This document shows, in pieces, positions 5,169 through 37,573 of a stretch of 64,000 nt of DNA (within the stretch, counting starts at the first letter, position 1; each line of letters starts with the position of its first letter). The stretch covers positions 1 through 64,000 of the forward strand of contig NZ_AUMA01000003.1 in NCBI RefSeq assembly GCF_000422565.1. The letters run 5' to 3'. This DNA comes from Desulfovibrio aminophilus DSM 12254. GTDB taxonomy: Bacteria; Desulfobacterota; Desulfovibrionia; Desulfovibrionales; Desulfovibrionaceae. The notes under the pieces are model-generated. The model saw only the letters and a program-made list of their open reading frames with translations, ran no database searches and was not told the DNA's origin. Both the position numbers and the translations under genes were made by a program.

Positions 5169-5176
5169 AAAAGTTC

Positions 5177-5243: not shown

Positions 5244-5307
5244 TCCCGGACACCTGGGGGGCGTTCCAAAAGGTAAGCCTTCCGTTGCATGAACCCAGGA
5301 GGTAGAC

Positions 5308-6270: not shown

Positions 6271-6354
6271 GGCTACACAAGATGGAATCTCATCTTATTA
6301 TTCGAAGTAAACGACTATCAAAAAAACATAGTTTGATGACAATGCATCAAATTT

Positions 6355-6600
6355 TGATCATTTTTACATAAGTTTTCAACGTGTCGCTCGTAGTATGCGA
6401 TCACGCGCATAATGTTCTGCATCCAAGCTAAAAGGTGTTCAATCTCCTAGCGATGCCTGAAGCGGCGCAAGGGTCTCCCGTCCTGGAACTTGGGGCGTTT
6501 TCGTCCGCCCCGGTGCGCCGTGATTATCTTGGAGCCTCATGCCTCCCGCAAACGCTAGGCTGGCCTGTCGCTGTCGTATGCCTTTCGCCGATCACTTGGT
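6355..6600 (-). pseudogene. Decayed IS5-family transposase, C-terminal end
   Basis: On the minus strand the translation passes several stops but still reads RRKAYDSDRPA, later GRKRPKFQDGRPLRRFRHR, a stop in place of the usual Trp, then EIEHLLAWMQNIMRVIAYYE and RHVENL. Intact IS5-group transposases have near-identical text at this end (the DKAYDSD block, the RHRWKIERLFAWLQNFRR block, then RYERHVENF). It is therefore a dead fragment. The rest of 6271-6738 shows nothing else recognisable. Confidence 0.75.
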
Positions 6601-6738
6601 TAATGGAGTAGCGCCCTTTTGGGGAGGCCAATGATATTTCCACAGACGGGGGACAATAGGGGGACAAATCAGTTTTTCTGGGGAGAGATTGGGTTGGCGT
6701 GAGGATTGAAACTTACATCTTAATTATTTGATTTTACT

Positions 6739-6827
6739 TGGTACCCGGGGCGGGAGTCGAACCCGCACACCCCTCGCGGAGTTAGGGATTTTAAGTCCCT
6801 TGCGTCTACCAGTTTCGCCACCCGGGC
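6739..6827 (-). tRNA. tRNA-Leu (anticodon UAA)
   Basis: The minus strand folds as a class II tRNA with acceptor GCCCGGG/CCCGGGU, an anticodon loop CTTAAAA giving UAA, a long variable arm and a GCGGG-TTCGACT-CCCGC T-arm. CCA is encoded (6741-6739). Its 3' end faces the mobile segment, a classical integration position. Confidence 0.95.
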
Positions 6828-6933
6828 ACGCCGTCGCGACCATAGCGGGTTGAAGCTTCGCACGCAACGGCTTCCAGGGCGCCCCTTGGCGGGTTTCTCT
6901 AGAGCCAACCTCCCGTTGGACTGGGGGCGCAAA

Positions 6934-20387: not shown

Positions 20388-21079
20388 GAGGCCTCCTTTG
20401 CGGCGATGATGAGGCAGTAGCCCAGGTCACGGGGATCGCGGCGGCCGCATCCGCCGCCTCCGGTCAGGTTCCGCAGGGCGTCCAGGGAGCCGTGTTGGAA
20501 GATGAGCCGTCCGGCCAGTTCGCTCAGGGCCCGGCTGTGGTCCTCCACGTGGAGCGGCCGCAGGCCGTGCCGCCGCAGGAGGCCTTCCATGTCCTCCAGG
20601 GGGCGGGCTCCGGCGGCGCAGCCCGCGATGCCGCCCGCCGCGCCGGGGCGGCGGACGTAGAGGTCGCTGAGAAGCAGGCGGCCGCCGGAGCGCAGCGTCC
20701 GGGCCATCTCGGCCAGGACCGGGCCGGGGTCGGCCAGGGTCGAGAGCACGCATTCGCAGCACAGGCCGTCCAGGCCGCCGTCGGCCAGGGGCAGGGCCTC
20801 CACCCGCGCCCGCAGCAGGGGCGTTCCGGGCTGTTCGGCGCGGGCCCTGGCGAGGAATTCCGCCGAGGCGTCCAGGCCCAGGGCGCGCAGGCCCCGGCCG
20901 GTGAGCAGGCCGAGGGTCGCGCCCGGGCCGCAGCCCAGGTCCGTCACCCGGTCCCCGGGGCCGAAGCCGCACAAATCCAGGCCGCGCGCGGTGAGTTCCG
21001 CGCCTCCGGGACGCAGGGCCGGGCCGCTGGCCTCCTGGAAGGCCGGGTGTTCGTACAGGGGCCGGACGACCTCGCTCAC
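20384..21079 (-). CDS. SAM-dependent class I methyltransferase
   Basis: This 231-residue protein has the SAM-binding motif VTDLGCGPGATLGLL, the acidic loop LGLDASAEFL, a post-I motif DGLCCECVLSTL and SGGRLLLSDLYV. It resembles the ubiquinone/arsenite methyltransferase class, but the CCECVL stretch has an unusual Cys pair. The C-terminal part contains GGGGCGRRDPRDLGY. It starts at GTG 21079, overlapping the dicluster protein stop (GTGA). The acceptor is unknown; the radical SAM enzyme two genes on suggests a shared small-molecule or cofactor substrate. Confidence 0.82.
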   Translation of the reverse strand: MSEVVRPLYEHPAFQEASGPALRPGGAELTARGLDLCGFGPGDRVTDLGCGPGATLGLLTGRGLRALGLDASAEFLARARAEQPGTPLLRARVEALPLADGGLDGLCCECVLSTLADPGPVLAEMARTLRSGGRLLLSDLYVRRPGAAGGIAGCAAGARPLEDMEGLLRRHGLRPLHVEDHSRALSELAGRLIFQHGSLDALRNLTGGGGCGRRDPRDLGYCLIIAAKEAS

Positions 21080-23580: not shown

Positions 23581-23662
23581 GTTCTCACCTCGCGGGAAAG
23601 AAAGGGGCGGACGCGGACACTTTCCGCGCCCGCCCCGATGGCGTCAAGAGGCCGTCAGACGT

Positions 23663-26383
23663 CTACTTCGTCTTGAGCCCGGCCAGGACCTTCTCGGGCA
23701 GGGCCGGGAGCTTGGTGATGCGCACGCCGCAGGCGTTGTAGATGGCGTTGATCACCGAGGCGTGCGGGCAGGTCAGCGGGATCTCGCCCGCGCCGGAGGC
23801 CCCGAAGGGGCCGTCCGGGCGCTCGGACTCCACGTAGATGACCTCCATGTTGTCCGGGATCTGCTTGATGTACGGGAAACCGGCGCCCGCCAGGGTGGAG
23901 TGCTTCTTGATGTCCTCATAGTCTTCGGTCAGGGCCAGGCCGATGCCCTGGGCCAGGCCGCCGTACATCTGGCCGTCCACCACGAGGCGGTTGTTCACCT
24001 TGCCGATGTCGGCCACCATGGTGATCTTCTCCATGGTGGTCTTGCCCGTGGCCAACTCCACGGCCACCTCGGACATGAACAGGCCGTACATGTAGCAGCA
24101 GAAGGGCTTGCCCTGGCCGTTCTCGTCGCAGTTGGTGGCCGGGGCGGTCCACTTGCCGCTGATTTTGGTGGGGATCTTCTCGGCCACCATCTCGGCATGG
24201 GTCCGGTAGCTCTTGTCGGCCTTGCGCATGGAGGCCAGCAGGAGTTCACAGCCGGCCTTGATGGCGTTGCCGGTCATGACCTGGGAGCGGCTGCCGCCGG
24301 CCGGGCCGGAGTTGGGGGCCTTGCTCGTGTCGTTCATGACCAGGCGGATCTTGTCCGGGGACAGGCCCAGGGGACGCAGGGCCTCGTGGGCCGTGCCCAG
24401 GGAACCGGCGTCCGCGCCCTGGCCGTGGTCCTCCCAGCAGGAGTACACGGTGACCCCGTTGTCCTCGTTCAGTTCCACGAAGACCTCGGAGGAGTCCGGG
24501 CCGTCCAGGCCCGCGCCGTACACGCCCACGCAGACGCCCACGCCGCGCTTGACCTCGGCCGTGGAGTTCGCCTTGGCCCGCTTGAGGGCCTCCTGGTACT
24601 TGGGCCGCAGGATGTCGATCATCTCGGGCAGGCTGTAGACCTCGGGGTCCTGGCCCGTGGGCGTGGTCGAGCCCTTGCGGTAGACGTTCTTGTAGCGCAG
24701 CTCCAGGGGATCCATGCCGAGCTTCTCGGCCAGTTCGTCCATGAGCAACTCGGAGCCGAACTCGCTCTCCGGCCCGCCGTAGCCGCGGAAGGCCGCGCCC
24801 CAGGCGTGGTTCGTGCAGACCGTGCGGCCCTCGCCCCGGATGCTCGGGATGTCGTAGCCCGCGCCGATGAACTGGGCTCCGCGCAGGGTCAGCAGGTCGC
24901 CGAACTCGGAGTAGGGGCCGTGGTCCACGGTCCAGTCGGTCTCCATGGCCAGGAGCTTGCCGTCCTTCTCGGCGGCGAAGCGCACGGTGGTGAACTGGGG
25001 CGAACGCTTGCCGGTGTAGGTCTGCTGCTGGTGATAGGTGTAGTTCAGGTACACCGGGCGTCCGGTGGCCATGGCGGCCACGCCCAGCAGGGCCTCCATG
25101 GTCGGGCTGAACTTGTAGCCGAAGGTGCCGCCCGTGGGGTTCTGGACCATGACGATCTTGTCCGCCTCCAGCCCGATGCCGGGAGCGATCATATACAGGT
25201 GCAGGTGCAGGCCGATGGACTTGGAATGGATGACCAACTGGCCCTGCTCGTTCATGTAGGCGCACCCGACGTCCGGTTCGATGGGCAGGTGCGGCTGACG
25301 GGAGGTGTAGAAGTCGCCCTCCACCACCACGGGAGCCTTGTCGAACAGGGGCTTGGTCTCCGGCCCCTTGGCGATCTTCTGGATGTAGTAGACGTTGGGC
25401 GTGCCGGGGTGGATTTCGATGGCGTCCTCGGCCATGGCCGCGGGCGCGCTCATGTATTCGGGCAGTTGCTCCAGGTCCACCTTGACCTTCTCGGCGGCCG
25501 CCTTGGCCTGCTTCTCGGTCTCGGCGCAGACGATGGCGATGGCGTCGCCGTACTGGAAGACCTTCTCGTCACAGAGGATGGGCCGGTCCCAGCCGTCGCC
25601 CTTGTTGGTGGGGAAGGTGATCAGGCCGGTGATCCGGTTCTTGCCCTTGACGTTCTTGTGGGTCACGACCTTGTACACGCCGGGCATCTTCTCGGCCTCG
25701 GAGGTATCGATGCCCTTGATGTTGGCGTGGGAGACCGTGGCCTGGACCAGGGCCAGGTGCAGGGTGCCCTCGGGCATCTTCAGGCCGAGGTCCGCGCCGA
25801 AGTCCCAGGTGCCGGTGACCTTGGCCACGGCGCTGGGGCGGGGCAGGTTCGTGCCCCAGACACGGCCGTCGGCGGGCAGCTTGTAGCGCACGTCGGCCGC
25901 GCGCATCTCGCCGCGCAGTATCTTGGCCGCGTCCATGACCGCGTCGGTGAGCTGCTTGTAGCCGGTGCAGCGGCAGGCGTTGCGATGCTTCTGGAACCAG
26001 TCGCGGACGTCCTCGCGGCTGGGCCGGGAGTTTTCGTCCAGCAGGGCCTTGGCCGAGACGATGAAGCCCGGGGTGCAGAAGCCGCATTGCGCTCCGCCGT
26101 GAGCCATCCAGGCCTCCTGGATGGGATGGAGGTTGTCGGGCGTGCCGATGCCCTCCACTGTGGTCACGCCGGCGCCGTCGGCCACGCGCTTCATCTTGGT
26201 CACGCACGATCGCACGAGCTTGCCGTCCAGGATCACGCTGCATGCGCCGCACTGGCCCTGGCCGCAGCCGACCTTGACCCCGGTGAGCAGAAGCTGCTTG
26301 CGGAGCACGTCCGCGAGGCTCTCCTCGGGATCGACAACCAGGGTTCTCGGAACCCCGTTGACGGTCAGGTTCAACTTGATCAT
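23663..26383 (-). CDS. mop: Molybdopterin aldehyde oxidoreductase (Mop)
   Basis: The 906 residues are nearly the length of the Desulfovibrio gigas enzyme. Two [2Fe-2S] domains come first (CGQGQCGACSV and CGFCTPG with CRCTGY). The molybdenum domains follow, with GTNLPRPSAVAKVTG, GGTFGYKFSP, RGYGGPESEFGSELL and, near the end, GASGAGEIPL, which holds the catalytic Glu. It oxidises aldehydes to acids using molybdopterin cytosine dinucleotide. The ATG at 26383 follows AAGGAGG. The surrounding genes supply cofactor maturation and electron acceptors. All expected cluster ligands are present. Confidence 0.95.
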   Translation of the reverse strand: MIKLNLTVNGVPRTLVVDPEESLADVLRKQLLLTGVKVGCGQGQCGACSVILDGKLVRSCVTKMKRVADGAGVTTVEGIGTPDNLHPIQEAWMAHGGAQCGFCTPGFIVSAKALLDENSRPSREDVRDWFQKHRNACRCTGYKQLTDAVMDAAKILRGEMRAADVRYKLPADGRVWGTNLPRPSAVAKVTGTWDFGADLGLKMPEGTLHLALVQATVSHANIKGIDTSEAEKMPGVYKVVTHKNVKGKNRITGLITFPTNKGDGWDRPILCDEKVFQYGDAIAIVCAETEKQAKAAAEKVKVDLEQLPEYMSAPAAMAEDAIEIHPGTPNVYYIQKIAKGPETKPLFDKAPVVVEGDFYTSRQPHLPIEPDVGCAYMNEQGQLVIHSKSIGLHLHLYMIAPGIGLEADKIVMVQNPTGGTFGYKFSPTMEALLGVAAMATGRPVYLNYTYHQQQTYTGKRSPQFTTVRFAAEKDGKLLAMETDWTVDHGPYSEFGDLLTLRGAQFIGAGYDIPSIRGEGRTVCTNHAWGAAFRGYGGPESEFGSELLMDELAEKLGMDPLELRYKNVYRKGSTTPTGQDPEVYSLPEMIDILRPKYQEALKRAKANSTAEVKRGVGVCVGVYGAGLDGPDSSEVFVELNEDNGVTVYSCWEDHGQGADAGSLGTAHEALRPLGLSPDKIRLVMNDTSKAPNSGPAGGSRSQVMTGNAIKAGCELLLASMRKADKSYRTHAEMVAEKIPTKISGKWTAPATNCDENGQGKPFCCYMYGLFMSEVAVELATGKTTMEKITMVADIGKVNNRLVVDGQMYGGLAQGIGLALTEDYEDIKKHSTLAGAGFPYIKQIPDNMEVIYVESERPDGPFGASGAGEIPLTCPHASVINAIYNACGVRITKLPALPEKVLAGLKTK

Positions 26384-26460
26384 TCCCTGCCTCCTTGCCG
26401 TTTGAGGGTCTTCAGTGTCTTGTTTCGCTCGCGACGCGGAGCGTTCCGCCTCGTCGGCGG

Positions 26461-27501
26461 TCAACGCCCCTTGCCGAAGGGGCAAATGGGGAAACGGCAC
26501 TGCGCGCAGCCGGAGCAGAAGCCGCCGTGACCCAGGTCCACGATGTCCTTCTTTGTCACGGTGTCCCCGGCCAGCAGCCGGGGCACGATGAGATCGAAGA
26601 TGCTGGCCTTGTGGTACATGACGCAGCCCGGCAGCCCGAGCACCGGCACCTCGCCGATGAAGGCCAGCAGAAACATGGCTCCGGGCAGGACCGGCGCTCC
26701 GTAGGTGACGACCCGGGCCCCTGCGGAACGGATGGCCGAGGGGGTGCGGTCGTCGGGGTCCACGGACATGCCGCCGGTGGCCACGATCATCTCCGCGCCC
26801 GCGTCGAGCAACTCCCGGATGGCCCCGGCGGTCATGGATTCGTCGTCCGAGACCAGAATTTGGCGGAAGACCTCGCTGCCGAGGTCATGGAATTTTTCGC
26901 GCACCACCGGGCCGAAACCGTCCTGGATGCGGCCGTGGTAGACCTCGCTGCCCGTGGTCACCATGCCCACGCGCAGGCAGCGGAATGCCTTCACCCGGAT
27001 GATCGAGCCCCGGGCGCAGACCGACTCGGCGCGTTTGAGCTTTTCCTCTTCGATGACCAGGGGCACCACGCGGGTTCCGGCCACGGCCTGGCCCGCGCGC
27101 ACCCGCTGGTTGCCGTGCAGGGTGGCGAAGACCATGTCGTCCACGGAGTTCAGCTCGCGCAGGGCGTCCACGTCCACCGAGAGCAGACCATCGTGGGCGG
27201 CAGTGAGGGTGATCTTGCCTTCAGATGGTTCGGACAGGTTCAGCCCGGGGCCGGCGGCCGCGACGGCGATGCGGCGGGCGGCTTCATCCTCGTGAACGAA
27301 ACCCTGTTGGAGGTCGAAGACGTAGATGTTGTCTTTGCCGATCTGGAGCAGCCCGGGGATGTCCTCTGGGCGGATGACGTGGCCTCTGCGGAAGGCCGGG
27401 CCCTTGCTGCGGCCCGGGACGATACGGGTGAGGTCGTGGCCCAAAACGGTGCCGACGGCTTCCTGGACCGGGATTGTCTTCATGCCCTTTGTGGAGCGCA
27501 T
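26461..27501 (-). CDS. Molybdopterin-binding (MoeA/MogA-like) protein with Cys tail
   Basis: The 346-residue protein has the molybdopterin-binding fold in its middle: VGMVTTGSEVYHGRIQD, IVATGGMSVDPDDRTPSAIR and GVPVLGLPGC-type text (EVPVLGLPGCVMYHK). It ends in a Cys-rich tail, GGFCSGCAQCRFPICPFG, which could hold an Fe-S or zinc site. The start is ATG 27501, behind GGAGGA; the extra ten codons upstream lack a ribosome site. It leads the Mop operon and lies 77 bases before mop, so it probably inserts or delivers the molybdenum cofactor. Confidence 0.85.
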   Translation of the reverse strand: MRSTKGMKTIPVQEAVGTVLGHDLTRIVPGRSKGPAFRRGHVIRPEDIPGLLQIGKDNIYVFDLQQGFVHEDEAARRIAVAAAGPGLNLSEPSEGKITLTAAHDGLLSVDVDALRELNSVDDMVFATLHGNQRVRAGQAVAGTRVVPLVIEEEKLKRAESVCARGSIIRVKAFRCLRVGMVTTGSEVYHGRIQDGFGPVVREKFHDLGSEVFRQILVSDDESMTAGAIRELLDAGAEMIVATGGMSVDPDDRTPSAIRSAGARVVTYGAPVLPGAMFLLAFIGEVPVLGLPGCVMYHKASIFDLIVPRLLAGDTVTKKDIVDLGHGGFCSGCAQCRFPICPFGKGR

Positions 27502-27728: not shown

Positions 27729-29702
27729 TCAGCGGAGGCGGGAAAGGTTTTTGAGGTCGTCGCCGGTCTCGAAGTTGCAGACCACGGTGAGCACGTTTTT
27801 GCCGTTCCGCCGGTCGTAGCTCAAGGAGGACATGTACTTGCGGAGGCGGTAGATCTGACGATCCGCGCGGGAACCGGAGGCCAGGCCTTCATCGGTGTCG
27901 GGGCCCAGGGCCGCCAGGGGGTCGTCCGGGGGGCCGTCCTCGGCCATCTCGATGATGATGGCCTGGGGCAGCACCGTGAAGACCAGTTCCAGATCCGGGC
28001 GGCGGCCGTCGAGCATGCGGGCCAGGGCGCGTGTGCCGTAGGACTCGACGGCCCCCGCGCGTTGGTTTTCGTATTCCAGGTAACGCAGCAGGGCGTATGT
28101 CATCAGTTCCTCCAGGGCCGTGCAGGCGTCGAAGATGGGCTTGACCCCGATCCCGGCCGCCTGGGCCAGGCGGGTCAGGGCGCGTTCGGCCGTGACGATT
28201 TCGCTGGCTTCGTTCTTGACCACCAGATGCAGGGTTCGGGCAGGCTCGGCCTGGTCCATGTGCTTGGCTTGTCGGCGGCGGATCAGCGGGTCGCAAAGCT
28301 TTGCCGCGATGATCACTGCGGCCACGAAGCCCAGGAACCACCAGAGCGGTTCCAGGCCGGGCGTACCGATGTCGGCGTTTTGCGGGAGTGGCGCGAGGTT
28401 CTCCCGGGGGGTGCGCGTGAGAATCCAGACGAACAGGCCGCAAAGGATCGTGAAGGTGGCCGCGAAGGGCGTGATGGAGGCCCATATCTTGCGCTGACGA
28501 CTGAAGAACGTCCCGGCCGCGTAACGCACGGCGGCCATGGCGAGCAGGAAGCCGACGCCTAGGGAAAGGAACTGAACGGCATGCACGAGTGTGGCGTCGG
28601 GGGACATGCCCAAGGGCAGGTCCAAGCCGTAGCGCTGTTCCGCCATCCATTGCAGCACCGTGCTGCCGCGGGCGAAGAGGTGCAGTCCCTGGGCCAGATG
28701 AGCGCCCAGGATGAGCGGGATGATGGCGTAGCTGAAGACCGAGAAGTTCATCTTCACGGAGACGCCGTTGAACAGCGTGGCCGCCTGGCTCGCCAGGGTC
28801 AGGCCCAGAAGGAAGAGCCCCTGCCAGGCCAGGAAGAAGAAGGTGAAGCCGGTTCGGTAGCCGAAGTGCCGGGAGAGTAGGTCGAGCACCTCGGGGAAGG
28901 CATGCTGGAACTGGGTCGCCGAGATGACCCCACCCAGGAGCACGGAGAGGATCGCCTCCATGAGTCCGGGCTTGCGCAACAGCCAGAGTTCCCTTGAGGG
29001 CAAGCGGAACTCCACTTTGGCCGAGTCCTTGGGGCAGGATTTCACGCAGTTGCCGCAAAAGATGCAGTAGGCGTTGGTCTCCTTGATGCGCGGGAATTCG
29101 TTCATCGGGCAGCCCGCCACGTGGCTGTTGCCGTAATAGCAGATTGCCGCGTTGCACGTGCGGCACTTGTCCGGGTTGCCGCGGATCTGGAGCATGCCGA
29201 CCCGGGCGTAGGCCACACCCATGCCGCCCAGAGGGCACATGTAGCGGCACCATGCCCGGCGTTCGAACACCGCCGAGGCCGCCAGCACGCAGCCCACCAC
29301 CACCAGGAGCAGGATGGCCGTGGCTTTGGGGTGGGAGGGAATGACGAACGCTTCCTCGGCCCAGACGATGAGCACCAGGAAGAAGCCGATGACCAGCGGG
29401 CCGAATTTCTTGACCCAGTTGGGCACGGGCAGGTTCAGGCCGCAAACCGCGCGCAGACCGTCGCCCAGGCAGCCGAAGGGGCAGACCGCGCACCAGAACC
29501 GGCCCAGGAGGAGGTATTGGACGATGAACAGGGGCCACCAGAACAGCCACATGAGCACGTTGCTCGGGTTGTCCGTGGGGTTCTGGGAACCGGCCAGAAG
29601 GAAATAGACGCCAAGCCCCAGCAGGGCCACGGAGACGGCCCGGAGGATGCCCGGAAAGTAGGGCGACTTGAAAAGCCGCTTCGTCCTGAAGAGTTGGGCC
29701 AT
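27729..29702 (-). CDS. NapH/NosR-like membrane polyferredoxin fused to GHKL ATPase domain
   Basis: In this 657-residue protein, residues about 1-480 hold multiple membrane helices, two CX2-3CP motifs at helix ends (CAVCPFGCLGD, CRYMCPLGG) and ferredoxin clusters (CRTCNAAICYYG, CIFCGNCVKSCP), the plan of NapH and NosR electron-transfer proteins. Residues about 489-657 look like an RsbW-type GHKL ATPase domain: CTALEELMTYALLRYL (N box) and IIIEMAEDGPPDDPLA (G1), followed by RLRKYMSSLSYDRRNGKN. This links membrane electron transfer with a possible kinase or anti-sigma output. It sits just downstream of apbE and rnf. No Shine-Dalgarno precedes the ATG. Confidence 0.8.
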   Translation of the reverse strand: MAQLFRTKRLFKSPYFPGILRAVSVALLGLGVYFLLAGSQNPTDNPSNVLMWLFWWPLFIVQYLLLGRFWCAVCPFGCLGDGLRAVCGLNLPVPNWVKKFGPLVIGFFLVLIVWAEEAFVIPSHPKATAILLLVVVGCVLAASAVFERRAWCRYMCPLGGMGVAYARVGMLQIRGNPDKCRTCNAAICYYGNSHVAGCPMNEFPRIKETNAYCIFCGNCVKSCPKDSAKVEFRLPSRELWLLRKPGLMEAILSVLLGGVISATQFQHAFPEVLDLLSRHFGYRTGFTFFFLAWQGLFLLGLTLASQAATLFNGVSVKMNFSVFSYAIIPLILGAHLAQGLHLFARGSTVLQWMAEQRYGLDLPLGMSPDATLVHAVQFLSLGVGFLLAMAAVRYAAGTFFSRQRKIWASITPFAATFTILCGLFVWILTRTPRENLAPLPQNADIGTPGLEPLWWFLGFVAAVIIAAKLCDPLIRRRQAKHMDQAEPARTLHLVVKNEASEIVTAERALTRLAQAAGIGVKPIFDACTALEELMTYALLRYLEYENQRAGAVESYGTRALARMLDGRRPDLELVFTVLPQAIIIEMAEDGPPDDPLAALGPDTDEGLASGSRADRQIYRLRKYMSSLSYDRRNGKNVLTVVCNFETGDDLKNLSRLR

Positions 29703-29886: not shown

Positions 29887-30921
29887 TCAGGCCTTTTCGA
29901 AAACAGGCCAATCCCGTGAACGGGCCTGGGCTCCCGAGGAGGAGATCAGGAGGCAGGCCCGCCCGGGGAGGGCGTCCGCCGTGGCCAGCGCCTGTCCCGG
30001 AGGCAGGACGAACAGGGCCGTGGCCAGGGCGTCGGCCTCCATGGCCGAGGGCGCGGCCACGGAGACGCTGGTGATCTGTCGGGGGCAGCCGCCGGTGCGC
30101 GGATCCACGATGTGGTGCAGGCGGCCGGATGCGTCCAGGGGGGCTTCATAGCTGCCGGAGGTGGCCACCGCGCCGTCGCGCAGGCGGAGAATCGAGGGGT
30201 AGCGGCCCCGGCGTTCGGGATCCTCCACCGCCACGCTCCAGGCCCGTCCGGGCGCGGGGCCGCCAGCGGCGCGGATGTCGCCTCCGGCGTTGATGAGATG
30301 GTCGTTCACGCCGAAGCTCCGAAGGGTGTCCGAGGCGCGATCCACGATGTAGCCCTTGGCGATGCCGTCCAGGGTCAGTGCCATGCCCTGCCGGCCGAGG
30401 CGAACGGTCCCGGAGTCGAGACCGACCGCCCCGGCGTCCACGAGGTCGAGAACCTCGCGGATCTCGGCGCGGGAAGGACCGGGATCGCCGGGGGCTCGGC
30501 CAGCCCGATCCTTGAGCAGGGTCACCAGCGGAAGCACCGTAGGGTCGAATGCTCCGCCGGCGACATCGCGCGTCCGCAACGCCCGATCCACCACGAACGA
30601 CAGCTCCGGGGGGGCGTTCCGAAGCGTTCCGTGCCGGTTCAGGTGGGACAGGGGGGTATCGTCGCGGTGGCGATCCAGGATGCCGCAGAGACGTTCCATC
30701 TCGGCGAAAGCCGCCTCAATGGCCTCTTCGGCCCGGTCCTGCGAGGGGTGCATGGCGGTCATGGTCACGAAGGTGCCCATGAGGAAACGGGTCCGCTCCA
30801 GGCGCAGGCGCTCGGGGGCGGCGGCTTCGGCCGCGGCCAGGGACGGGGCCAGGGACAGGCCCAGGCCCAGGATGCCTCCGGCGCGGAGGAATTGACGGCG
30901 GGTGAGGATGGCGTCAGGCAT
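29887..30921 (-). CDS. apbE: FAD:protein FMN transferase ApbE
   Basis: The 344 residues begin with a twin-arginine signal (LTRRQFLRAGG, then a hydrophobic run to about 30), so export is through Tat. ApbE motifs follow: TRFLMGTFVTM, ALTLDGIAKGYIVD, LINAGGDIRAAGG, TSGSYE and HHIVDPRTGG. ApbE uses FAD to attach FMN covalently to Thr in SGAT sites of RnfG and RnfD. It overlaps the end of rnfB by 8 bases and closes the rnf operon. In this operon only RnfG keeps a clear SGAT target. Confidence 0.93.
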   Translation of the reverse strand: MPDAILTRRQFLRAGGILGLGLSLAPSLAAAEAAAPERLRLERTRFLMGTFVTMTAMHPSQDRAEEAIEAAFAEMERLCGILDRHRDDTPLSHLNRHGTLRNAPPELSFVVDRALRTRDVAGGAFDPTVLPLVTLLKDRAGRAPGDPGPSRAEIREVLDLVDAGAVGLDSGTVRLGRQGMALTLDGIAKGYIVDRASDTLRSFGVNDHLINAGGDIRAAGGPAPGRAWSVAVEDPERRGRYPSILRLRDGAVATSGSYEAPLDASGRLHHIVDPRTGGCPRQITSVSVAAPSAMEADALATALFVLPPGQALATADALPGRACLLISSSGAQARSRDWPVFEKA

Positions 30922-33046
30922 TGCCTTGCTCCTTGCGGGAACCGGGGTGGGGCTTCACGTCTCGGTCTCCGGCGAATTCGAATCCGGCATCGGCGTCGTA
31001 ACAGGTCAGGCCGCAGCGCAGGCAGCGGCTGGATTCCTTGATCGCCTCGCGCTCCTGAATGCCCCGGCGCACTTCCATGGTGAAATGCTGCCGTCGCATG
31101 TCCACGGGGATTTCCGGGGCGATGACGCGGGGGATGGTGTACTTCACGCGCATGTCCTTGAGGATGCTTTCAGGGATGACCCGGACCTGGGGTTCGACGG
31201 GTTGCGCCACCTCGCCGCTGGTCACGAAGAGGTGGATGGAGCGCGCGGCCTTGCGGCCGTCGGTCACGGCCTCCATGACGATGGCGCGACCGCGGCGGAC
31301 CTCGCCGCCCACGAAGACGTTCGGCAGGTTGGTCTGCATGGTCGTGTCGTCGCCGTCCAGGGTGTCCCGGCGGCTCCGCTTCAGGCCCGCCAGACCGCTG
31401 GCTTCGTTGAAGGGCGTGAGATCGGGCTTGCGGTCCGTGGCCGCGATGATCAGGTCCACGTCCTCGATGATCTCGTCGGTGTCCGGGAGGGGGATGATCT
31501 CGCCGGTGGCCTTTTCTTGGTCCTTGTAGCGGCACTGTTGGAACCAGACCTTGGTGCCGCGCCCCGAGGCGTCGGTGACGATGGATACGGGCAGGGTCTG
31601 GAAGAGCACTTCGGCCCCGATTTCCTTGGCGCGCTCGACCTCTTCCTTGTTGGCGGGCATCTTGCGCTGAATGTTCGGAGAAAGAACCACGGTGCGGCGG
31701 GCGCCCATGCGGGCCACGGCCCGCGCGCAGTCCAGGGCCGTGTTCGTGTCGCCGATGATGACCACCGTCTGGTTGCGCAGCGAGGACCAGAGCGAGCCGA
31801 GACCGGTGAGGAATTCCACTCCGCCCTGGAGGTTGCGGGCGTCCGAGCCGGGGATGTCCAGGAGCGGCGTGGTCCAGGCGCCAGTGGCCAGGAACACGGC
31901 CTTGAAACCTTCCGCCTCCAGATCCTTGAGCCCGAACTCGCGGCCCAGTGTCATGTAAGTGCGCAGCTCCACGCCCAGGTCCAGGATGCCCTGGACTTCC
32001 CAGTCCACCACGTGGCGGGGCAGGCGGAATTCCGGCACGGCGTAGCGCAGCAGGCCTCCCGCCTCGGCCCGGGATTCGAAGATCACCGGGTGATGTCCCA
32101 GGCGGCGCAGGAAGTAGGCGCAGGAGAGCCCCGATGGGCCGCCGCCCACGATGGCGATCTTGATTCCGGTGTCCGGGCCGCAATGGATGGGCACGCGCTG
32201 GCCGGAGTGCATCTCCCAGTCGGCCACGAAGCGCTCCAGGGTGTTGATGGCCACGCCTTCGTCCACCAACTTGCGGCGGCAGATGTCCTCGCAGGGGTGG
32301 GGGCAGACGCGGCCCACGATGGCGGGCAGCGGGTTGCGGTTCTTGAGCGTCAGCAACGCGCTTCGGTAGTCGCCGCTCTTGACCTGCTGGATGAAGGTGC
32401 GCACGTCCAACTGCACCGGGCACTTCTGCATGCAGGGGGCCAGACAGTCGTCGAGTTTGTTCACGTGCAGAAGGCTGGCGGAGAAGCTGGTGATGCGGAT
32501 GGCCCCGGTGGGGCAGACCTCGGCGCACTTGCCGCAGGAACGACAGAGGGCCTTGTTCACGATGGGCAGGCCCTCGGCCCCCAGGCGCACGGCCCCGAAG
32601 GGACAGGCCCGGACGCAGGAGCCCATTCCGATGCAGCCCATGCCGCAGGTCTTTTCGCCGCCGTAGAGCATGGCCTCGGCGCGGCAGTCGCGTACGCCTT
32701 CATAAGCGAACATTTGGCGGGCCCGGTCGCCACCGGAGCAGATCAGCGAGGCGACCTTGGGCTCCTTGTAGGCCACGCTGAGGCCCATGACCTTGGCTAT
32801 GGCTTCGGCCACGTCCATGCCGCCGGCCACACAGACCTCGGGCGGAGCCTCTCCCGCCACCACGGCGGCGGCCGCCGCCGAACAGCCGGGGAAGCCGCAG
32901 CCGCCGCAGTTGGCGCCGGGCATCACTCCTTCGACCTCGGCCACGCGCGGATCTTCCTTGACTGAAAACACCTTGGAGGCCGCAGCCAGGAGCAGGGCGG
33001 CCGCCAGACTGAGACCGAATACGACCAGAACCGAAGTGGTGACCAT
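30914..33046 (-). CDS. rnfB: RnfB ferredoxin subunit fused to GltD-like FAD/NAD(P) module
   Basis: This 710-residue protein is far longer than ordinary RnfB. Residues 1-190 are RnfB: an N-terminal membrane helix, the GANCGGCGFPGC cluster, then CGMGCIGMGSCVRACP and CRSCGKCAEVCP. From about 200 a GltD/NfnB-like module begins with its own Fe-S part (CLAPCMQKCPVQLD, CPHPCEDICRRK), an FAD site VGGGPSGLSCA near 300, and a nucleotide site VVIIGDTNTALDCARAVARMG near 430. RnfB links ferredoxin to the membrane complex; the added module could link NAD(P)H or a second donor. It lies 10 bases downstream of rnfA. Confidence 0.9.
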   Translation of the reverse strand: MVTTSVLVVFGLSLAAALLLAAASKVFSVKEDPRVAEVEGVMPGANCGGCGFPGCSAAAAAVVAGEAPPEVCVAGGMDVAEAIAKVMGLSVAYKEPKVASLICSGGDRARQMFAYEGVRDCRAEAMLYGGEKTCGMGCIGMGSCVRACPFGAVRLGAEGLPIVNKALCRSCGKCAEVCPTGAIRITSFSASLLHVNKLDDCLAPCMQKCPVQLDVRTFIQQVKSGDYRSALLTLKNRNPLPAIVGRVCPHPCEDICRRKLVDEGVAINTLERFVADWEMHSGQRVPIHCGPDTGIKIAIVGGGPSGLSCAYFLRRLGHHPVIFESRAEAGGLLRYAVPEFRLPRHVVDWEVQGILDLGVELRTYMTLGREFGLKDLEAEGFKAVFLATGAWTTPLLDIPGSDARNLQGGVEFLTGLGSLWSSLRNQTVVIIGDTNTALDCARAVARMGARRTVVLSPNIQRKMPANKEEVERAKEIGAEVLFQTLPVSIVTDASGRGTKVWFQQCRYKDQEKATGEIIPLPDTDEIIEDVDLIIAATDRKPDLTPFNEASGLAGLKRSRRDTLDGDDTTMQTNLPNVFVGGEVRRGRAIVMEAVTDGRKAARSIHLFVTSGEVAQPVEPQVRVIPESILKDMRVKYTIPRVIAPEIPVDMRRQHFTMEVRRGIQEREAIKESSRCLRCGLTCYDADAGFEFAGDRDVKPHPGSRKEQGNA

Positions 33047-33056
33047 GGTTACTCCC

Positions 33057-33632
33057 TTACGAAGCCATGCCGGTGAAGGCCAGGAAGGCGAGCGACATGA
33101 GACCCGCCGTGATCAGCGCGATGGGCACTCCCCGGAAGACATGGGGGATGGGGGAAATGTCGAACCGTTCGCGGATGGACGAGATGATGACCAGGGCCAG
33201 GGTGAAGCCCACTCCGGTGGCCAGGCCGAAGACCACCGACTTGGTGAAGCCGTAAGAGTTCTTCTGCACCAGGATGGCCGAGCCGAGCACAGCGCAGTTG
33301 GTGGTGATGAGCGGAAGGTAGAGGCCGAGGGCCCGGTACAGGGGCGGGATCATCTTCTTCAGGAACATCTCCACGAACTGCACCAGGGAGGCGATGACCA
33401 GGATGAAGACGATGGTGCGGAGATAGTCCAGTCCATACGGTTCCAGGAGCATCTTCTGAATCGGCCAGGTCAGGGCCACCGACATGCCGATGACGAAGAT
33501 CACCGCTCCGCCCATGCCAAGGGCCACGTCCGTGGACTTGGAAGTGCCCAGGAAGGGGCAGGTGCCGAGGTATTGCACCAGGACGATGTTGTTGATGAAC
33601 ACCGCCGAGATGATGAGCAGGAAGTATTCCAT
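33057..33632 (-). CDS. rnfA: Rnf complex membrane subunit RnfA
   Basis: This 191-residue protein has six membrane helices. The family Cys residues that hold the intramembrane [2Fe-2S] with RnfE are visible in VQYLGTCPFLGTSKS and TTNCAVLGSAILVQ. RnfA and RnfE form the electron path across the membrane. It starts 21 bases after rnfE stops and ends 10 bases before rnfB starts. Length and motifs are normal. Confidence 0.93.
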   Translation of the reverse strand: MEYFLLIISAVFINNIVLVQYLGTCPFLGTSKSTDVALGMGGAVIFVIGMSVALTWPIQKMLLEPYGLDYLRTIVFILVIASLVQFVEMFLKKMIPPLYRALGLYLPLITTNCAVLGSAILVQKNSYGFTKSVVFGLATGVGFTLALVIISSIRERFDISPIPHVFRGVPIALITAGLMSLAFLAFTGMAS

Positions 33633-33653
33633 GGTTCCTTTCCTTCGCGCCCG

Positions 33654-34337
33654 CTAATCCCGGGAGCACAACTTGCAGCTGCCGCAGGTCGAACACGAGC
33701 TGATGGCCTCCAGGGCTCGCGGAGGCTCGTTTTCGTGGCGCTTGGCGTTCCAGCGGTTGAGCGCGTTCATGCCGGCCAGGATCAGGCCCAGGCAGATGAA
33801 CGCTCCGGGGGCCTTGACCAGGATGCTCACGGGCTCGAAGCTCGACCAGGTCACGACCTTGCCGAAAAGCGTACCCGCGCCGATGAGCTCACGCAGGCCG
33901 CCCAGGAAGGTCAGGGACATGGTGAAGCCCATACCCATACCCAGCCCGTCCAGAACCGAGAGAAAGACGGGGTTGCGCGAGGCGAAGGCCTCGGCGCGGC
34001 CTAGAATGATGCAGTTGACCACGATGAGCGGCACGAAGATGCCCAGTTCCAGGTACAGCGGATAGGTGTAGGCCTGCATGAGCAGCTCCACCGCCACCAC
34101 CACTGTGGCCGCGATGAGAATGAAGCAGGCGATGCGGACCTTGGAGGGGATGATCTTGCGCAGCAGGGCCACCAGGAAGTTGGAGACCACGAGCACGAAG
34201 ATCACCGCGCATCCCATGCCCAGGCCGTTTTTGGCGCTGGTGGTCACGGCCAGGGTCGGGCAGAGGCCGAGAACGATGCGGAACGGCGGCAGTTCCCGCC
34301 AGAGTCCCTTGGTGAATTCCTTGACGGCGCGTCCCAT
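33654..34337 (-). CDS. rnfE: Rnf complex membrane subunit RnfE with Cys tail
   Basis: The 227 residues carry six membrane helices and RnfE/NqrD markers, LGLCPTLAVTTS and VNCIILGRAEAFA, each with the Cys expected to share an intramembrane [2Fe-2S] with RnfA. The C-terminus adds a tail ending ISSCSTCGSCKLCSRD, with four cysteines in a ferredoxin-like spacing. Typical RnfE sequences known to me end without such a cluster. It lies 13 bases after rnfG. Confidence 0.92.
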   Translation of the reverse strand: MGRAVKEFTKGLWRELPPFRIVLGLCPTLAVTTSAKNGLGMGCAVIFVLVVSNFLVALLRKIIPSKVRIACFILIAATVVVAVELLMQAYTYPLYLELGIFVPLIVVNCIILGRAEAFASRNPVFLSVLDGLGMGMGFTMSLTFLGGLRELIGAGTLFGKVVTWSSFEPVSILVKAPGAFICLGLILAGMNALNRWNAKRHENEPPRALEAISSCSTCGSCKLCSRD

Positions 34338-34350
34338 GCGGACCTCCCTG

Positions 34351-34932
34351 TCAGCGAGGCCAGGCGGCCAGGGCGCCCGGCTTGATTGCGGTGTAGGCCT
34401 CCGCGGCCTTGCGTACGGCAGTGACCATGCCCGTGGAGGAGTAGGTGGCCCCGGACACGGCGTCGATGTCGCCGCCCTTGTTCTTGAGGTCGAGGCCGGT
34501 CAGCGGGTGGTCCTTGTATCGTGAGGTCACTGCGGGCTGGAACACGCGCGTTCCAAGGCCCGGCGTTTCGGAATGGGTGGTCACGCCAATGGCCTGGACC
34601 ACATCCTTGCCGGGATCGAAGGCGACCATCACGCCCACGTTGCCGCCGTAGCCTGGGCCATGACCCTCTATGGCCAGCGCCACGAGTTTGCCGGCGGAGA
34701 GAGCCGGATAGACCGTGATTTCCGCCCCGTCGGCCAGGGCCATCTTGCGGCGGTCGGCGATCGGGTTGTTTTCATGCTCGGGGAGCACCGCGGCCAGGGC
34801 CGGGCCCTGCACGAAGGTCAACACCTGCTCCTCGATTCGGGTCCGGGTGGCCTCCTTGAGCGAGGCCAGGGTGAAGCCCGAGGCCGTGCCGATGAGCGAG
34901 AGGACCACGATCATCTTGATGATTTCACGCAT
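34351..34932 (-). CDS. rnfG: Rnf complex FMN subunit RnfG
   Basis: This 193-residue protein has an N-terminal membrane anchor (MIVVLSLIGTASGFTLA) and an extracytoplasmic FMN domain. The covalent flavin site reads DAVSGATYSSTGMV, with the Thr that ApbE modifies. TTHSETPGLGTR is the other family signature. The start ATG 34932 overlaps the rnfD stop by 8 bases. RnfG is the outer flavoprotein and a natural partner for the periplasmic cytochrome encoded first in the operon. Confidence 0.94.
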   Translation of the reverse strand: MREIIKMIVVLSLIGTASGFTLASLKEATRTRIEEQVLTFVQGPALAAVLPEHENNPIADRRKMALADGAEITVYPALSAGKLVALAIEGHGPGYGGNVGVMVAFDPGKDVVQAIGVTTHSETPGLGTRVFQPAVTSRYKDHPLTGLDLKNKGGDIDAVSGATYSSTGMVTAVRKAAEAYTAIKPGALAAWPR

Positions 34933-35905
34933 GGCGTCTGCCTCCGAAGAACTTGGGCCGGACGCGGTCCAACAGCGGGGCCAGGAGGTTGGCCAGGAGA
35001 ATGGCGAAGGGGACGCCATCGGGGTAGATGCCCCACTGGCGGATGACCAGAACCAGAACTCCGGCCAGGAAGCCGTAGAGAATCATGGCCCGGTGCCCGG
35101 AGGGCGAGGAGCCGGGGTCCGGGGCCAGGAAGAAGGCGCCCAGCAGCACTGAACCGGTGCAGAGATGGAACAGGGGGCCCGCCTGGGTCAGCGGGTCCAG
35201 CCAATGGAACAGCGCGGCCATGGCCGCAACTCCGGCCAGGAAGGCCAGGGGGATGTGCGGCCGCAGGCGGCGGGAGGCGATCAGGAACAGGCCTCCCGCC
35301 AACAGCGCGATGCCCTGGGAGGCGCCGATGGCGCCCAGCTGGTTGCCCAGGAAGAGGTCGGCCAGGGGGAGGTGGTCGATGGCTCCTGTCCCCAGATATT
35401 TGAGCTGCGCCAACGGGTCCGGGGTTGGCCAGTGGGCGAGCATGAGATCCAGGTCCATGTACTTGGGCCAGGAGACCTCACAGACGGCCCAGCCGATGAG
35501 CGGGGGACAGAAGGGGTTGGACCCGAAGCCCCCGAAGACCGTCCGACCCAGCGCGATGGTGCAGAAGCTGCCTGCCGCCACAAGCCACCAGGGGGCCGTC
35601 GCGGGCAGAAGCATGGCCAGGAGCAGGCCATGGAACAGGGCCGTGCCGTTGTCCACGTCCACCTCGCGTCCGGCCAGCATCTCCAGCAGGATCTCGCTGA
35701 TCACCGCCATGGCGCCGGCCAAGGCCACCACGCGGGCGGCGTCCAGTCCGTACCGCCATGTGCCCATACCGAGGGCCGGGAGCAGGGCCAGGCAGGAAAG
35801 GGCCATGAGCGAACCCAGGGTCCGACCGCAGCGCCAGTGCGAGGGCGGGCCGACGGTGAGACGGACCTGGGTGATGGCGTGTGGTTTTACGACAAGGGCG
35901 GCCAT
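34925..35905 (-). CDS. rnfD: Rnf complex membrane subunit RnfD, SGAT motif not evident
   Basis: The 326 residues carry about nine membrane helices and RnfD/NqrB text such as GRTVFGGFGSNPFCPPLIGWA, DLFLGNQLGAIGASQGIALL and FFLAPDPGSSPSGHRAM. The usual flavin site just before the DLFLG block reads SGATPL in canonical RnfD. Here the aligned stretch reads WPTPDPLAQLK, so the Thr acceptor appears absent. A nearby TGAI does not restore it. The gene lies between rnfC and rnfG. Confidence 0.9.
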   Translation of the reverse strand: MAALVVKPHAITQVRLTVGPPSHWRCGRTLGSLMALSCLALLPALGMGTWRYGLDAARVVALAGAMAVISEILLEMLAGREVDVDNGTALFHGLLLAMLLPATAPWWLVAAGSFCTIALGRTVFGGFGSNPFCPPLIGWAVCEVSWPKYMDLDLMLAHWPTPDPLAQLKYLGTGAIDHLPLADLFLGNQLGAIGASQGIALLAGGLFLIASRRLRPHIPLAFLAGVAAMAALFHWLDPLTQAGPLFHLCTGSVLLGAFFLAPDPGSSPSGHRAMILYGFLAGVLVLVIRQWGIYPDGVPFAILLANLLAPLLDRVRPKFFGGRRHA

Positions 35906-35933
35906 GCGAACTCCTCATTCATCCGTTGGGCGT

Positions 35934-37091
35934 TCAATGGACCACTCCGTCCATGGGCCAGGGGTTGGCCGCGTCGGCCAGCTCCTTGCGGGCGAAGCGG
36001 ATGTAGTGCAGCAGGGGGCGGCGGGCCGTGCACCAGTAAGAGCACTGGCCGCACTCCATGCAGGAGGCCAAGCCGTAGGCCAGGGTTTTTTCGAACTGGC
36101 CATATTCCGCGTAGCGGCCGATCATGTCCGGCCGGATGCGCGCCGGGCAGTGCAGGACGCATTCGCTGCAATTGATGCAGGGATCGCCGACCATGGGGGG
36201 GAAGGCGTCCTTGGGAACCACGGTCACTGCATAGGCGCCTTTCTCCAGGCCGTGGTCCACGTCGTAGACCGTGTAGCCGCGCATGGGGCCGCCGATCACG
36301 AGGCGGTCGCCCGCGTTGATGGGCACCCCGGCGAATTCGAGAATGTAGGACAACGGGGTGCCGAGGACGGCTCGATAGTTCTTGCCCGCGAGGGTGAAGA
36401 CGGTGTCCGTCACCGGACGTCCGGTCTCCATGATCCGGCCGATGAACCAAAGCTTCATGACGCTGACCGCGATGGTGTTTTCCGGCTTCTCCCGCCCCGT
36501 GGCGGCGAGAACCGCGAGGTCGGACAGGGAGTTGGGGTACTCCGGTTTGACCCGTACCGTTTCGCAGCCGGGCAGATTCTGGTCCAGGGTCGCGGTGACA
36601 AGGACCATGCGCTGGGGGGCGATGAGCTTGCGCACCGCCTCAAGGCCGCGCAGAAGGGTGGGCTGGGCATCGCGCATGAGCTGCTCGGCGACGGATACGG
36701 TGGGTTCGGGGTTGACCCCGTTTATGACCAGAATCTCTCTGTTCAGCATGAAGCGATCCATGCGCACGCCGAGCGTCCGCAGAGCCTCGCGCAAGCCCTC
36801 GGTATCCTCGGGAATATCCATGGGCGGTAGGGGATCCAAGGCGGCCGAAGCCTTCATGGTGACATAGGCGAAGTCGGCCTTGTCCACCACGGCGCTCATG
36901 GGCGCATGCACCACGCCGCCCAGGGGCTTGGGATGCCTGGCCAATTCCGCGCCGGCGGCCAGCTTTTGGCCTCGCTGCACCTGGATGTCGTAGCCGCAGA
37001 CATAGAGGTTCAGCCAGTCCGGGGCTGGGACGTCGATGATCTCGGAGGACAGGGGACTTTGCAGTGAAAACGTTGGCTTGCGCATGCTCAT
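35934..37091 (-). CDS. rnfC: Rnf complex subunit RnfC, short form lacking the Gly-rich nucleotide loop
   Basis: The 385 residues are shorter than the usual 430-450. The barrel-sandwich region (GGVVHAPMSAVVDK), the SLBB text (VIGGPMRGYTV) and two C-terminal ferredoxin clusters (CINCSECVLHCP, CMECGQCSYWC) are present. The stretch between GLREALRTLGV and EILVINGVNPEP is about 10 residues; in canonical RnfC it carries the GLGGATFPT-type loop for NADH/FMN. That loop is missing. It overlaps the cytochrome gene by 4 bases, so electrons may enter by cytochrome instead of NADH. Confidence 0.92.
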   Translation of the reverse strand: MSMRKPTFSLQSPLSSEIIDVPAPDWLNLYVCGYDIQVQRGQKLAAGAELARHPKPLGGVVHAPMSAVVDKADFAYVTMKASAALDPLPPMDIPEDTEGLREALRTLGVRMDRFMLNREILVINGVNPEPTVSVAEQLMRDAQPTLLRGLEAVRKLIAPQRMVLVTATLDQNLPGCETVRVKPEYPNSLSDLAVLAATGREKPENTIAVSVMKLWFIGRIMETGRPVTDTVFTLAGKNYRAVLGTPLSYILEFAGVPINAGDRLVIGGPMRGYTVYDVDHGLEKGAYAVTVVPKDAFPPMVGDPCINCSECVLHCPARIRPDMIGRYAEYGQFEKTLAYGLASCMECGQCSYWCTARRPLLHYIRFARKELADAANPWPMDGVVH

Positions 37092-37573
37092 TTCCTTTGC
37101 AGATGGCAGGCGTTGCAGCTCTCTTTCCCGAACGGCCCCGCGCCCATGCTTTCATGGCAGTTCATGCATTGGGCATGGAGAGCGTCGGTGCGCAGGGGAA
37201 TGCCGGAGACGTCGGGCTGGTCTGTCGCGGTCTGGTCGGCCTTCGGCGGTGCGGCGTGGCAACGCGTGCAGGCGTTGATGCTTTTGAAGGCGGTACGGTG
37301 GGTCGCCTTGAACGTCGCATCGAAAGCCGCGGGGTGACATGAGCCGCAGGCCTCGGGATTCATTGGATCCGCCCCGTCGTGGTGGCAGTCGCCACAGGCC
37401 AGACCGAGGTCGTCGGCATGGTGCCCGTGGCTGAAGAGGACTCGGCCTCCGGCGTTGTCCAAGACGATGCGCGGGGGGGTGCCCTGGGCCGGGGCGATGT
37501 GCAGATAGCCGAATACGGCCACCAAGCACAGAACCGCCGTAATGGCGGCGATGGGATAATACCTTTTGCTCAT
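37088..37573 (-). CDS. Multihaem cytochrome c (five CXXCH), Rnf-associated
   Basis: The 161 residues begin with a signal anchor (about 8-30, YYPIAAITAVLCLVAVFGYL). Five haem sites are visible: CGDCH, CGSCH, CTRCH, CMNCH and CNACH. FSHGHH near the N-terminus offers axial histidines as in class III cytochromes. The common Desulfovibrio Rnf cytochrome is multihaem, so five is plausible. The start is ATG 37573, behind AAGGCACT. It is the first gene of the rnf operon and likely exchanges electrons between the periplasmic cytochrome pool and RnfG/RnfC. Confidence 0.9.
   Translation of the reverse strand: MSKRYYPIAAITAVLCLVAVFGYLHIAPAQGTPPRIVLDNAGGRVLFSHGHHADDLGLACGDCHHDGADPMNPEACGSCHPAAFDATFKATHRTAFKSINACTRCHAAPPKADQTATDQPDVSGIPLRTDALHAQCMNCHESMGAGPFGKESCNACHLQRK

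Follow-up and report, generated by a model that had tools for sequence, protein, structure and literature searches.

Introduction

In the solved Rnf complexes, electrons are described as passing from RnfB through the RnfA/RnfE centre to the flavin mononucleotide (FMN) of RnfG on the outside, and as returning through the FMN of RnfD and riboflavin to RnfC and nicotinamide adenine dinucleotide (NAD, reduced form NADH) (PMC9588780, PMC11889175), with RnfC being placed on the cytoplasmic side (PMC9588780). Regarding Desulfobacula toluolica, a Tol2 type was described with a large RnfB carrying NAD sites and an RnfC without the NADH domain, and Desulfococcus multivorans has the same type with a cytochrome in the cluster; according to that source, the mode of action of this type awaits verification, and a partner of RnfC other than NAD was proposed (PMC5109826). 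The Tol2-like type has also been designated Rnf2, and Rnf1 was named as occurring in Desulfovibrionaceae (PMC11887813). The basic arrangement of a large RnfB, an RnfC without its FMN/NADH loop (loop-less hereafter), and a cytochrome is, as described there, already in print for Desulfobacteraceae (PMC5109826). In the present study, we analyzed the rnf operon on a stretch of 64,000 nucleotides from Desulfovibrio aminophilus DSM 12254 (contig NZ_AUMA01000003.1, positions 1 to 64,000 of the forward strand), the whole of which is called the window.

What is new here is that, as judged from aligned cofactor ligands, loop-less complexes appear to have also lost the FMN anchor of RnfD while keeping the ligands of the outbound path. 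In the literature surveyed, mostly parts of papers, neither the absence of the FMN site from RnfD nor a changed nucleotide site in large RnfB proteins was found to be described. On balance, we favor a reading in which the Rnf complex of the window acts as an outbound-only ferredoxin:cytochrome c oxidoreductase that possibly pumps ions, the flavin adenine dinucleotide (FAD) module fused to RnfB being vestigial or repurposed.

Operon layout and loci compared

Eight genes on the minus strand form one operon in the window, in the order cytochrome c, rnfC, rnfD, rnfG, rnfE, rnfA, rnfB, and apbE, and include all six canonical Rnf subunit genes (rnfC, D, G, E, A, and B). The features are as follows.

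37088-37573, minus strand: small c-type cytochrome, first gene of the operon, with an N-terminal membrane anchor (by eye) and five CXXCH motifs
35934-37091, minus strand: rnfC, loop-less, 385 amino acids (aa), eight cluster cysteines kept
36738-36764, minus strand: short link replacing the canonical GxGGAxFPT loop, rnfC codons 110-118
34925-35905, minus strand: rnfD, 326 aa, FMN-attachment site lost by column alignment
35417-35419, minus strand: rnfD residue 163, an Asp aligned with the FMN-bearing Thr
35489-35491, minus strand: rnfD residue 139, Trp replacing an Arg that is invariant among loop-bearing complexes
34351-34935, minus strand: rnfG, above the cut-off of NCBIfam RnfG_DVU2794, FMN site SGAT kept
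34444-34446, minus strand: FMN-attachment Thr of RnfG, by column alignment
33654-34337, minus strand: rnfE, membrane cluster cysteines kept
33057-33632, minus strand: rnfA, membrane cluster cysteines kept
30914-33046, minus strand: rnfB with a fused GltD/NfnB/StnC-like module, 710 aa
32054-32161, minus strand: FAD Rossmann site of the module, GGGPSG...E...GG, intact by motif alignment
31649-31765, minus strand: second Rossmann site of the module, an altered NAD(P) site (VVIIGDTNTALD...LSPNIQRKMPA) by motif alignment
31286-31309, minus strand: GGEVRRGR, second FAD motif with a clade-specific change; class F2 (below) has [GA]GDxx[TS]GP
29887-30921, minus strand: apbE, flavin transferase, the target site of which is kept on RnfG and not on RnfD

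The cytochrome matched Cytochrom_CIII and Cytochrome_C7. For comparison, matches were listed for 149 genomes of the family to which the window belongs, from which rows were chosen and 88 regions taken, together with one from another family; among the matches listed, second Rnf copies may be missed. Four classes were distinguished, the window included: canonical complexes without a cytochrome (4 loci); unfused complexes (U, 33 loci, with a cytochrome called in all but L147); F2 (30 loci), with a fused RnfB, a 10-CXXCH cytochrome, and an intact site of the type binding NADPH, the reduced form of NAD phosphate (NADP); and F1 (19 loci including the window), with a fused RnfB, an altered site, and five CXXCH motifs per operon cytochrome in 19/19 loci. 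F1 and F2 were assigned by the motif YRR...MPA, which makes the per-class frequencies of this motif partly circular; GGE, Thr or Ser in place of Gly, the heme number, and the trees are independent of the assignment. L107, an unfused RnfB with an over-long open reading frame (ORF), was re-labelled U. Two fused loci belong to neither F1 nor F2, namely, L084 (cut by the contig end) and L119 (run of unread bases), and L148 (no classifiable gene), L149 (fused gene without other rnf genes), and G097:C26 (RnfB off the contig) were left out. Cytochromes were called by homology to that of the window in the family set and, in the other sets, as an ORF with at least three CXXCH motifs no more than 2.5 kb from rnfC; L264 and L272, both of which have a 22-CXXCH gene farther off, were entered as lacking a cytochrome.

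Loss of the RnfC pocket and the RnfD flavin anchor

In the RnfC of the window, only nine residues separate GLREALRTLGV from EILVINGVNPEP, and the canonical FMN/NADH pocket motifs GxGGAxFP, ECEPY, and YPQGxEKQLI are all absent together. The alignment with TIGR01945 starts at profile position 156 and reaches 151 bits versus a cut-off of 246. A previous reading of the DNA from its letters (the sequence-only reading) had described the nucleotide loop of RnfC as missing, and these results bear it out. The same reading gave RnfC an SLBB domain and two clusters: both 4-cysteine clusters are present, their eight cysteines are kept in all rows checked, including 19/19 F1 loci, and an SLBB-like stretch aligns with solved RnfC, but Pfam lists no SLBB match. 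In the AlphaFold model of RnfC (mean predicted local distance difference test score (pLDDT) 89.3; template modeling score 0.84 by query length against solved RnfC), the fold appears to stand without the loop. A location of the loop elsewhere in RnfC was rejected because the three motifs are lost together and the fold model is complete.

Among 159 full-length RnfC proteins, the GxGGAxFP loop was present in 0/100 fused-RnfB loci, 1/37 unfused loci with a cytochrome gene nearby, and 20/22 unfused loci without a cytochrome (18/22 when the search was limited to RnfC residues 80-200); in these counts, L084 and L306, which are one contig-cut fused copy, were entered as fused and unfused, respectively. 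The removal of six near-identical copies (pairs L118/L117, L266/L191, L274/L201, L279/L225, L305/L139, and L306/L084) gave 0/96, 1/35, and 20/22. ECEPY and YPQGxEKQLI disappear along with the loop across the RnfC set. The fusion of RnfB as the cause of the loop loss was rejected because unfused complexes are loop-less too, and a move of the site to RnfB does not explain the loss either because 36/37 unfused cytochrome-linked loci are also loop-less. Forty-four rows with scores between those of the loop-less group and the cut-off were set aside as PduS-like, which we take them to be; 26 of these (L035-L060) were inspected, and each lacked rnfD, rnfE, and rnfA in its approximately 4 kb of sequence.

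Cofactor ligands were compared by alignment column across the Rnf loci. The FMN-attachment Thr of RnfD was found in 21/21 loop-bearing loci and in 0/115 loop-less loci with an adjacent cytochrome, and 8/21 loop-less loci lacking an adjacent cytochrome had Thr in this column, without its usual context (21/21, 0/112, and 7/18 after copy removal); the Fisher value of 9e-8 for these counts is optimistic because the rows are related, the eight with Thr belonging to only two small clades. The covalent FMN site of canonical RnfD is absent from the window by column alignment. Arg at the position of residue 139 was present in 21/21 loop-bearing and 0/136 loop-less loci, 103 of the 136 having Trp. On the outbound side, both RnfA cluster cysteines were kept in every row and both RnfE cysteines in every loop-less row, one being Ala in 4 canonical rows, and the FMN site of RnfG was Thr or Ser in every row aligned (five canonical loci gave no RnfG call).

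Constraint was also assessed over all columns that were at least 90% conserved in canonical rows, as the mean fraction kept and its range over the classes U, F1, Fi, and Fx; the 19 Fx rows of these column counts still contain L258, L260, and L270, which the 'ALT/Fx' pattern label wrongly caught (site GGGNSA...YRR). The fractions were.90-.94 for RnfA,.90-.96 for RnfE,.79-.94 for RnfG (10 columns),.59-.65 for RnfD, and.42-.48 for RnfC. Since canonical columns are kept more in RnfA, RnfE, and RnfG than in RnfD and RnfC, the outbound half appears to have stayed under its original constraint, which is much weaker in the return half.

The module fused to RnfB

The RnfB of the window consists of an RnfB N-terminus, Fer4_20, and Pyr_redox_2, with an FAD site at residues 301-306 and a nucleotide-type site at 432-437, in agreement with the 710-residue protein with a GltD/NfnB-like module that the sequence-only reading had described without noting any alteration of the nucleotide site. 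Large fused RnfB proteins are common in the family, which we take to be Desulfovibrionaceae, and the combination with a loop-less RnfC is shared by all 19 F1 loci. The closest solved chains to the module by sequence were those of Nfn-ABC and StnABC, and sequence searches of solved structures gave no relative of the module closer than these. The AlphaFold model of RnfB had a mean pLDDT of 78.6, with ten-residue means of 64-97 across residues 191-610.

Of the features of the NfnB/StnC/GltD type, the FAD Rossmann site and the Fer4_20 cysteines are present in the window module, but the NADP(H) Rossmann site GGGxTA...YRR is not; at the motif level, the usable nucleotide site expected of a Tol2-type RnfB is also absent. 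An Arg pair underlies the binding of the 2'-phosphate of NADPH, and the third Gly underlies dinucleotide binding. In F1, GGGNTA is changed to G(D)TNTA along with the Tyr-Arg-Arg, EMPA to KMxAN, GGD to GGE, and AIGQ mostly to ATDR. The third Gly of GGGNTA is Thr or Ser in 19/19 F1 and Gly in 30/30 F2 loci; GGE occurs in 19/19 F1 loci, with Asp at the matching place in 30/30 F2 loci. Residue 462 is changed from Glu to Lys in 19/19 F1 loci, residues 538-539 from Gly-Gln to Asp-Arg in 18/19 and 19/19, and residues 582 (Asp to Glu) and 587 (Pro to Arg) in 19/19 each. The NADPH-type site is intact in 30/30 F2 loci, a count that is partly circular because the class was assigned by YRR...MPA.

In 19/19 F1 loci, the module retains the glycines of the FAD motif and also R341, the counterpart of StnC R239 in the alignment. 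K170 of StnC is described as ligating the Fe-S cluster adjacent to FAD, with Glu in its place in NfnB (PMC10482914); this column holds Lys in 30/30 F2 loci, and His (10), Glu (8), or Leu (1) in F1. The module domain with the lowest conservation among F1 loci is the NAD(P) Rossmann (mean identity.55 versus.77 for Fer4_20), which is not the case among F2 loci (.66 versus.71). To judge from these alignments, the pyridine-nucleotide site of the F1 module has been changed in a concerted, clade-wide way, and we infer that NAD(P)H has ceased to be its donor, the module now being either vestigial or reduced by something else. In F2, by analogy with StnC, NADPH could enter through the RnfB module.

Proposed electron path and alternatives

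Because the recognizable NAD-binding sites and the two return-path flavin anchors are lost, electron flow in the window complex would be one-way, to a periplasmic cytochrome. Reduced ferredoxin would deliver electrons to the RnfB clusters, from which they would pass by way of the RnfA/RnfE Fe-S centre across the membrane and reach the RnfG FMN on its periplasmic face, the ligands for this step being seen here and the route taken from published structures, and would then pass to the five-heme operon cytochrome or another periplasmic cytochrome. The return limb (RnfG FMN to RnfD FMN, riboflavin, RnfC clusters, RnfC FMN, and NAD) would be cut, the RnfD FMN anchor and the RnfC FMN/NADH pocket motifs both being lost. 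Ion pumping could survive if it is located at RnfA/RnfE, before RnfG, as in the disputed A. woodii model (PMC11889175).

The operon cytochrome is likely to be a partner of the complex. The proposal of the sequence-only reading that RnfC takes electrons from this cytochrome was not supported: the cytochrome should be periplasmic because of its N-terminal anchor and five CXXCH motifs, and RnfC lies on the cytoplasmic side, which makes this transfer topologically unlikely. The subunit facing the cytochrome would be RnfG, the FMN site of which is kept.

Several points weigh against outbound-only transfer. No multiheme gene was called beside rnfC in 21 loop-less loci, and L313 combines a cytochrome with an intact return limb. 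All eight RnfC cluster cysteines are kept in the clade of the window, and RnfD has an acidic residue at its riboflavin/Na+ position in all 19 F1 rows (Asp in 17, Glu in 2), as it does in most rows overall; because of this retention, part of the return limb appears to be still selected for. A non-covalent flavin may be present in RnfD. The charges K462, R539, E582, and R587, each fixed in 19/19 F1 loci, argue against a simple decay of the module. The decaheme cytochrome of D. alaskensis is described as having no phenotype. In the C. tetanomorphum paper, RnfD is named as the site of Na+ transport, which is linked there to the semiquinone of its FMN (PMC9588780); under that model, which needs the RnfD FMN, pumping would be lost. 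In favor of outbound-only transfer, vesicle experiments on D. alaskensis that were designed to reveal an ion gradient driven by electron flow from ferredoxin to NAD+ have been reported as unsuccessful (PMC4841214). Going by gene order and protein sizes, the Rnf complexes of D. alaskensis and of D. vulgaris are probably unfused.

An unlikely alternative is that the module has been repurposed, with its FAD being reduced by another two-electron carrier or by a protein partner that binds the charged pocket and feeding RnfB. The fixed pocket charges, the retained FAD motif and R341, and the presence of a second Rnf, F2-like or canonical, in 17/19 F1 genomes are in its favor; among the rows taken, 14 of the 19 F1 genomes have an F2-like fused complex (in one case with unread bases), 3, of the same genus as the window, have a canonical complex, and 2 have no second complex. 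However, the NAD(P) domain is the fastest-changing part of the module in F1, and no ligand is known. We regard it as rather unlikely that electrons complete the loop as far as the RnfC clusters, by way of a flavin bound non-covalently in RnfD, and exit to a cytoplasmic acceptor that is not NAD. The RnfC cluster cysteines in 19/19 F1 loci and the acidic residue of RnfD agree with it, as does the partner other than NAD proposed for the RnfC of Tol2 (PMC5109826), but both return-limb flavin sites are lost together, with no exception where a cytochrome adjoins a loop-less rnfC.

The entry of NAD(P)H at the GltD module of RnfB instead of at RnfC, which the sequence-only reading had put forward, is quite improbable in F1: although the module has the fold and FAD site of GltD/NfnB/StnC, its NADPH-type site is intact in all F2 loci (a class partly defined by it), and the same module type in StnC feeds NADPH electrons into an Fe-S chain (PMC10482914), the site is altered in all 19 F1 loci and degenerate by alignment in the window, as seen from the Thr or Ser at the third Gly, the changed YRR, EMPA, GGD, and AIGQ, and the His, Glu, or Leu in place of the Lys ligand. 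The idea of nucleotide entry at RnfB fits the sister class F2 and fails in F1.

Evolution of the complexes

In a tree of 62 chosen rows based on RnfD, RnfE, and RnfA, which does not contain L258, L260, and L270, all loop-less rows except those of Methanosarcinaceae group on a single branch (52 rows, 100/100), and F1 is one clade (8/8 rows, 100/100). The unfused family members are also one clade (13/13, 99/97) and are nested among fused ones, and, because of this nesting, the unfused family complexes most likely lost the module. A first tree, rooted on four long canonical rows, had placed the fusion after the loop loss in a paraphyletic unfused group, and wider sampling reversed this. The module loss can be placed only approximately, since monophyly of the fused family members is not rejected by the approximately unbiased test (p 0.13). 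L313 neighbors the loop-less branch (97/91); with both its loop and its RnfD FMN Thr intact and a gene for a 4-heme cytochrome close to rnfC, this unfused complex is a possible intermediate.

Outside the family, 26 of 60 more module-bearing loci have, as we read them, an altered nucleotide site, and 14 genomes contain one intact and one altered copy (two candidates scored per genome). Five changes between intact and altered were counted on the tree, the labels of the 62 chosen rows being given by motif; the loss of the nucleotide site seems, from these alignments, to have happened more than once. On inspection, the site is altered in L277, L295, and L233, and in part in L273. A fused RnfB with an altered site and a loop-less RnfC were observed in contigs labelled as metagenome-assembled genomes (MAGs) of Spirochaetes (L277) and Aminicenantes (L295), a placement that suggests transfer or binning error.

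Two Methanosarcinaceae MAGs (L314 and L321) have a multiheme ORF, a loop-less RnfC, no RnfD Thr, and Arg replaced by Trp, and sit on the canonical side of the tree, apart from the loop-less branch of the window. Their losses appear to be an independent case pointing the same way. The Rnf of M. acetivorans has been described as not interacting with NAD or NADP, with RnfG as the proposed donor to cytochrome c (PMC4023990).

Membrane-anchored RnfB-GltD genes also occur as solo loci (L182-L186, L188-L190, L193, L195, and others). As far as the contigs extend, no other rnf gene was found in the approximately 9 kb upstream of these; for 20/30 solo RnfB genes, the downstream sequence (up to approximately 10 kb) contained no match to rnfC, D, G, E, or A. 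L182 adjoins succinyl-CoA ligase-like genes.

We tentatively suggest a wider scenario, in which a large bacterial clade, including 84/88 Rnf complexes classed in the family of the window, would consist of outbound-only Rnf complexes acting as ion-pumping ferredoxin:cytochrome c oxidoreductases, with a dead return limb and lost NAD chemistry; an NADPH module would then have been grafted onto RnfB and repeatedly switched off or retuned, the F1 module having been adapted to another two-electron donor. This scenario is possible, but we hold it with less confidence than the reading of the window complex itself.

Other features of the window and its genome

The genome of the window has a second, canonical Rnf (L061, G000:C3:208651-213982) with the RnfC loop, the RnfD FMN Thr, and a 297-aa RnfB. 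Directly following the rnf operon, and in the same orientation, is a gene for a NapH-like ferredoxin-type protein (27729-29702) with a C-terminal HATPase_c_2 match; this match is anti-sigma-like and below Pfam's own cut-off, and the fusion is odd. The stretch 21076-26500 encodes a molybdopterin aldehyde oxidoreductase beside a Fer4_20 plus CCG-domain protein (NF045663), which is a second GltD-related protein near the rnf operon. Positions 1-8000 have a guanine-cytosine fraction of approximately 0.51 versus 0.63-0.73 elsewhere, with a TraH-like conjugation gene at 3092-4561 and a tRNA-Leu gene at 6739-6827, and are likely to be the edge of an integrated conjugative element.

Significance and comparison with known systems

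The role of Rnf in sulfate reducers is contested between ferredoxin:NADH and ferredoxin:cytochrome c3 activities, one source calling it a ferredoxin:NADH oxidoreductase (PMC4215793) and another leaving both roles possible, the former with NAD+ as acceptor (PMC10920352). The loss of both return flavin sites together with the retained outbound ligands provides a residue-level reason favoring the cytochrome route. If this is true, loop-less complexes are predicted to reduce no NAD+, and the redox balances drawn for such bacteria would change. These complexes also offer a natural test between pump models that rely on RnfA/RnfE (PMC11889175) and on RnfD with its FMN (PMC9588780).

As compared by description, the complex of the window resembles the Tol2-type/Rnf2 complexes (PMC5109826, PMC11887813) in its approximately 700-aa RnfB with a nucleotide-binding module, its RnfC without the NADH domain, and its cluster cytochrome; it differs in the altered nucleotide site of RnfB and in the loss of the RnfD FMN site, which is not mentioned in the parts of those papers that were consulted. 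With the Methanosarcina Rnf and MmcA, as represented by MAGs and not by M. acetivorans, it shares the multiheme gene in the operon, the loop-less RnfC, the absence of the RnfD FMN Thr, and the change from Arg to Trp, whereas the Methanosarcina complex is archaeal, has no fused module, and occupies a separate branch of the tree. The module has the fold, FAD site, Fer4_20 cysteines, and Arg near the flavin of NfnB/StnC/GltD, from which it is distinguished by a pyridine-nucleotide site that is not conserved and by its membrane fusion to RnfB. In comparison with the canonical Rnf of A. woodii, C. tetanomorphum, and A. vinelandii, the six subunits, the RnfA/RnfE cysteines, and the RnfG FMN site are common to both, but the complex of the window is without the RnfC FMN/NADH pocket and the RnfD FMN anchor, and has a cytochrome and the module added.

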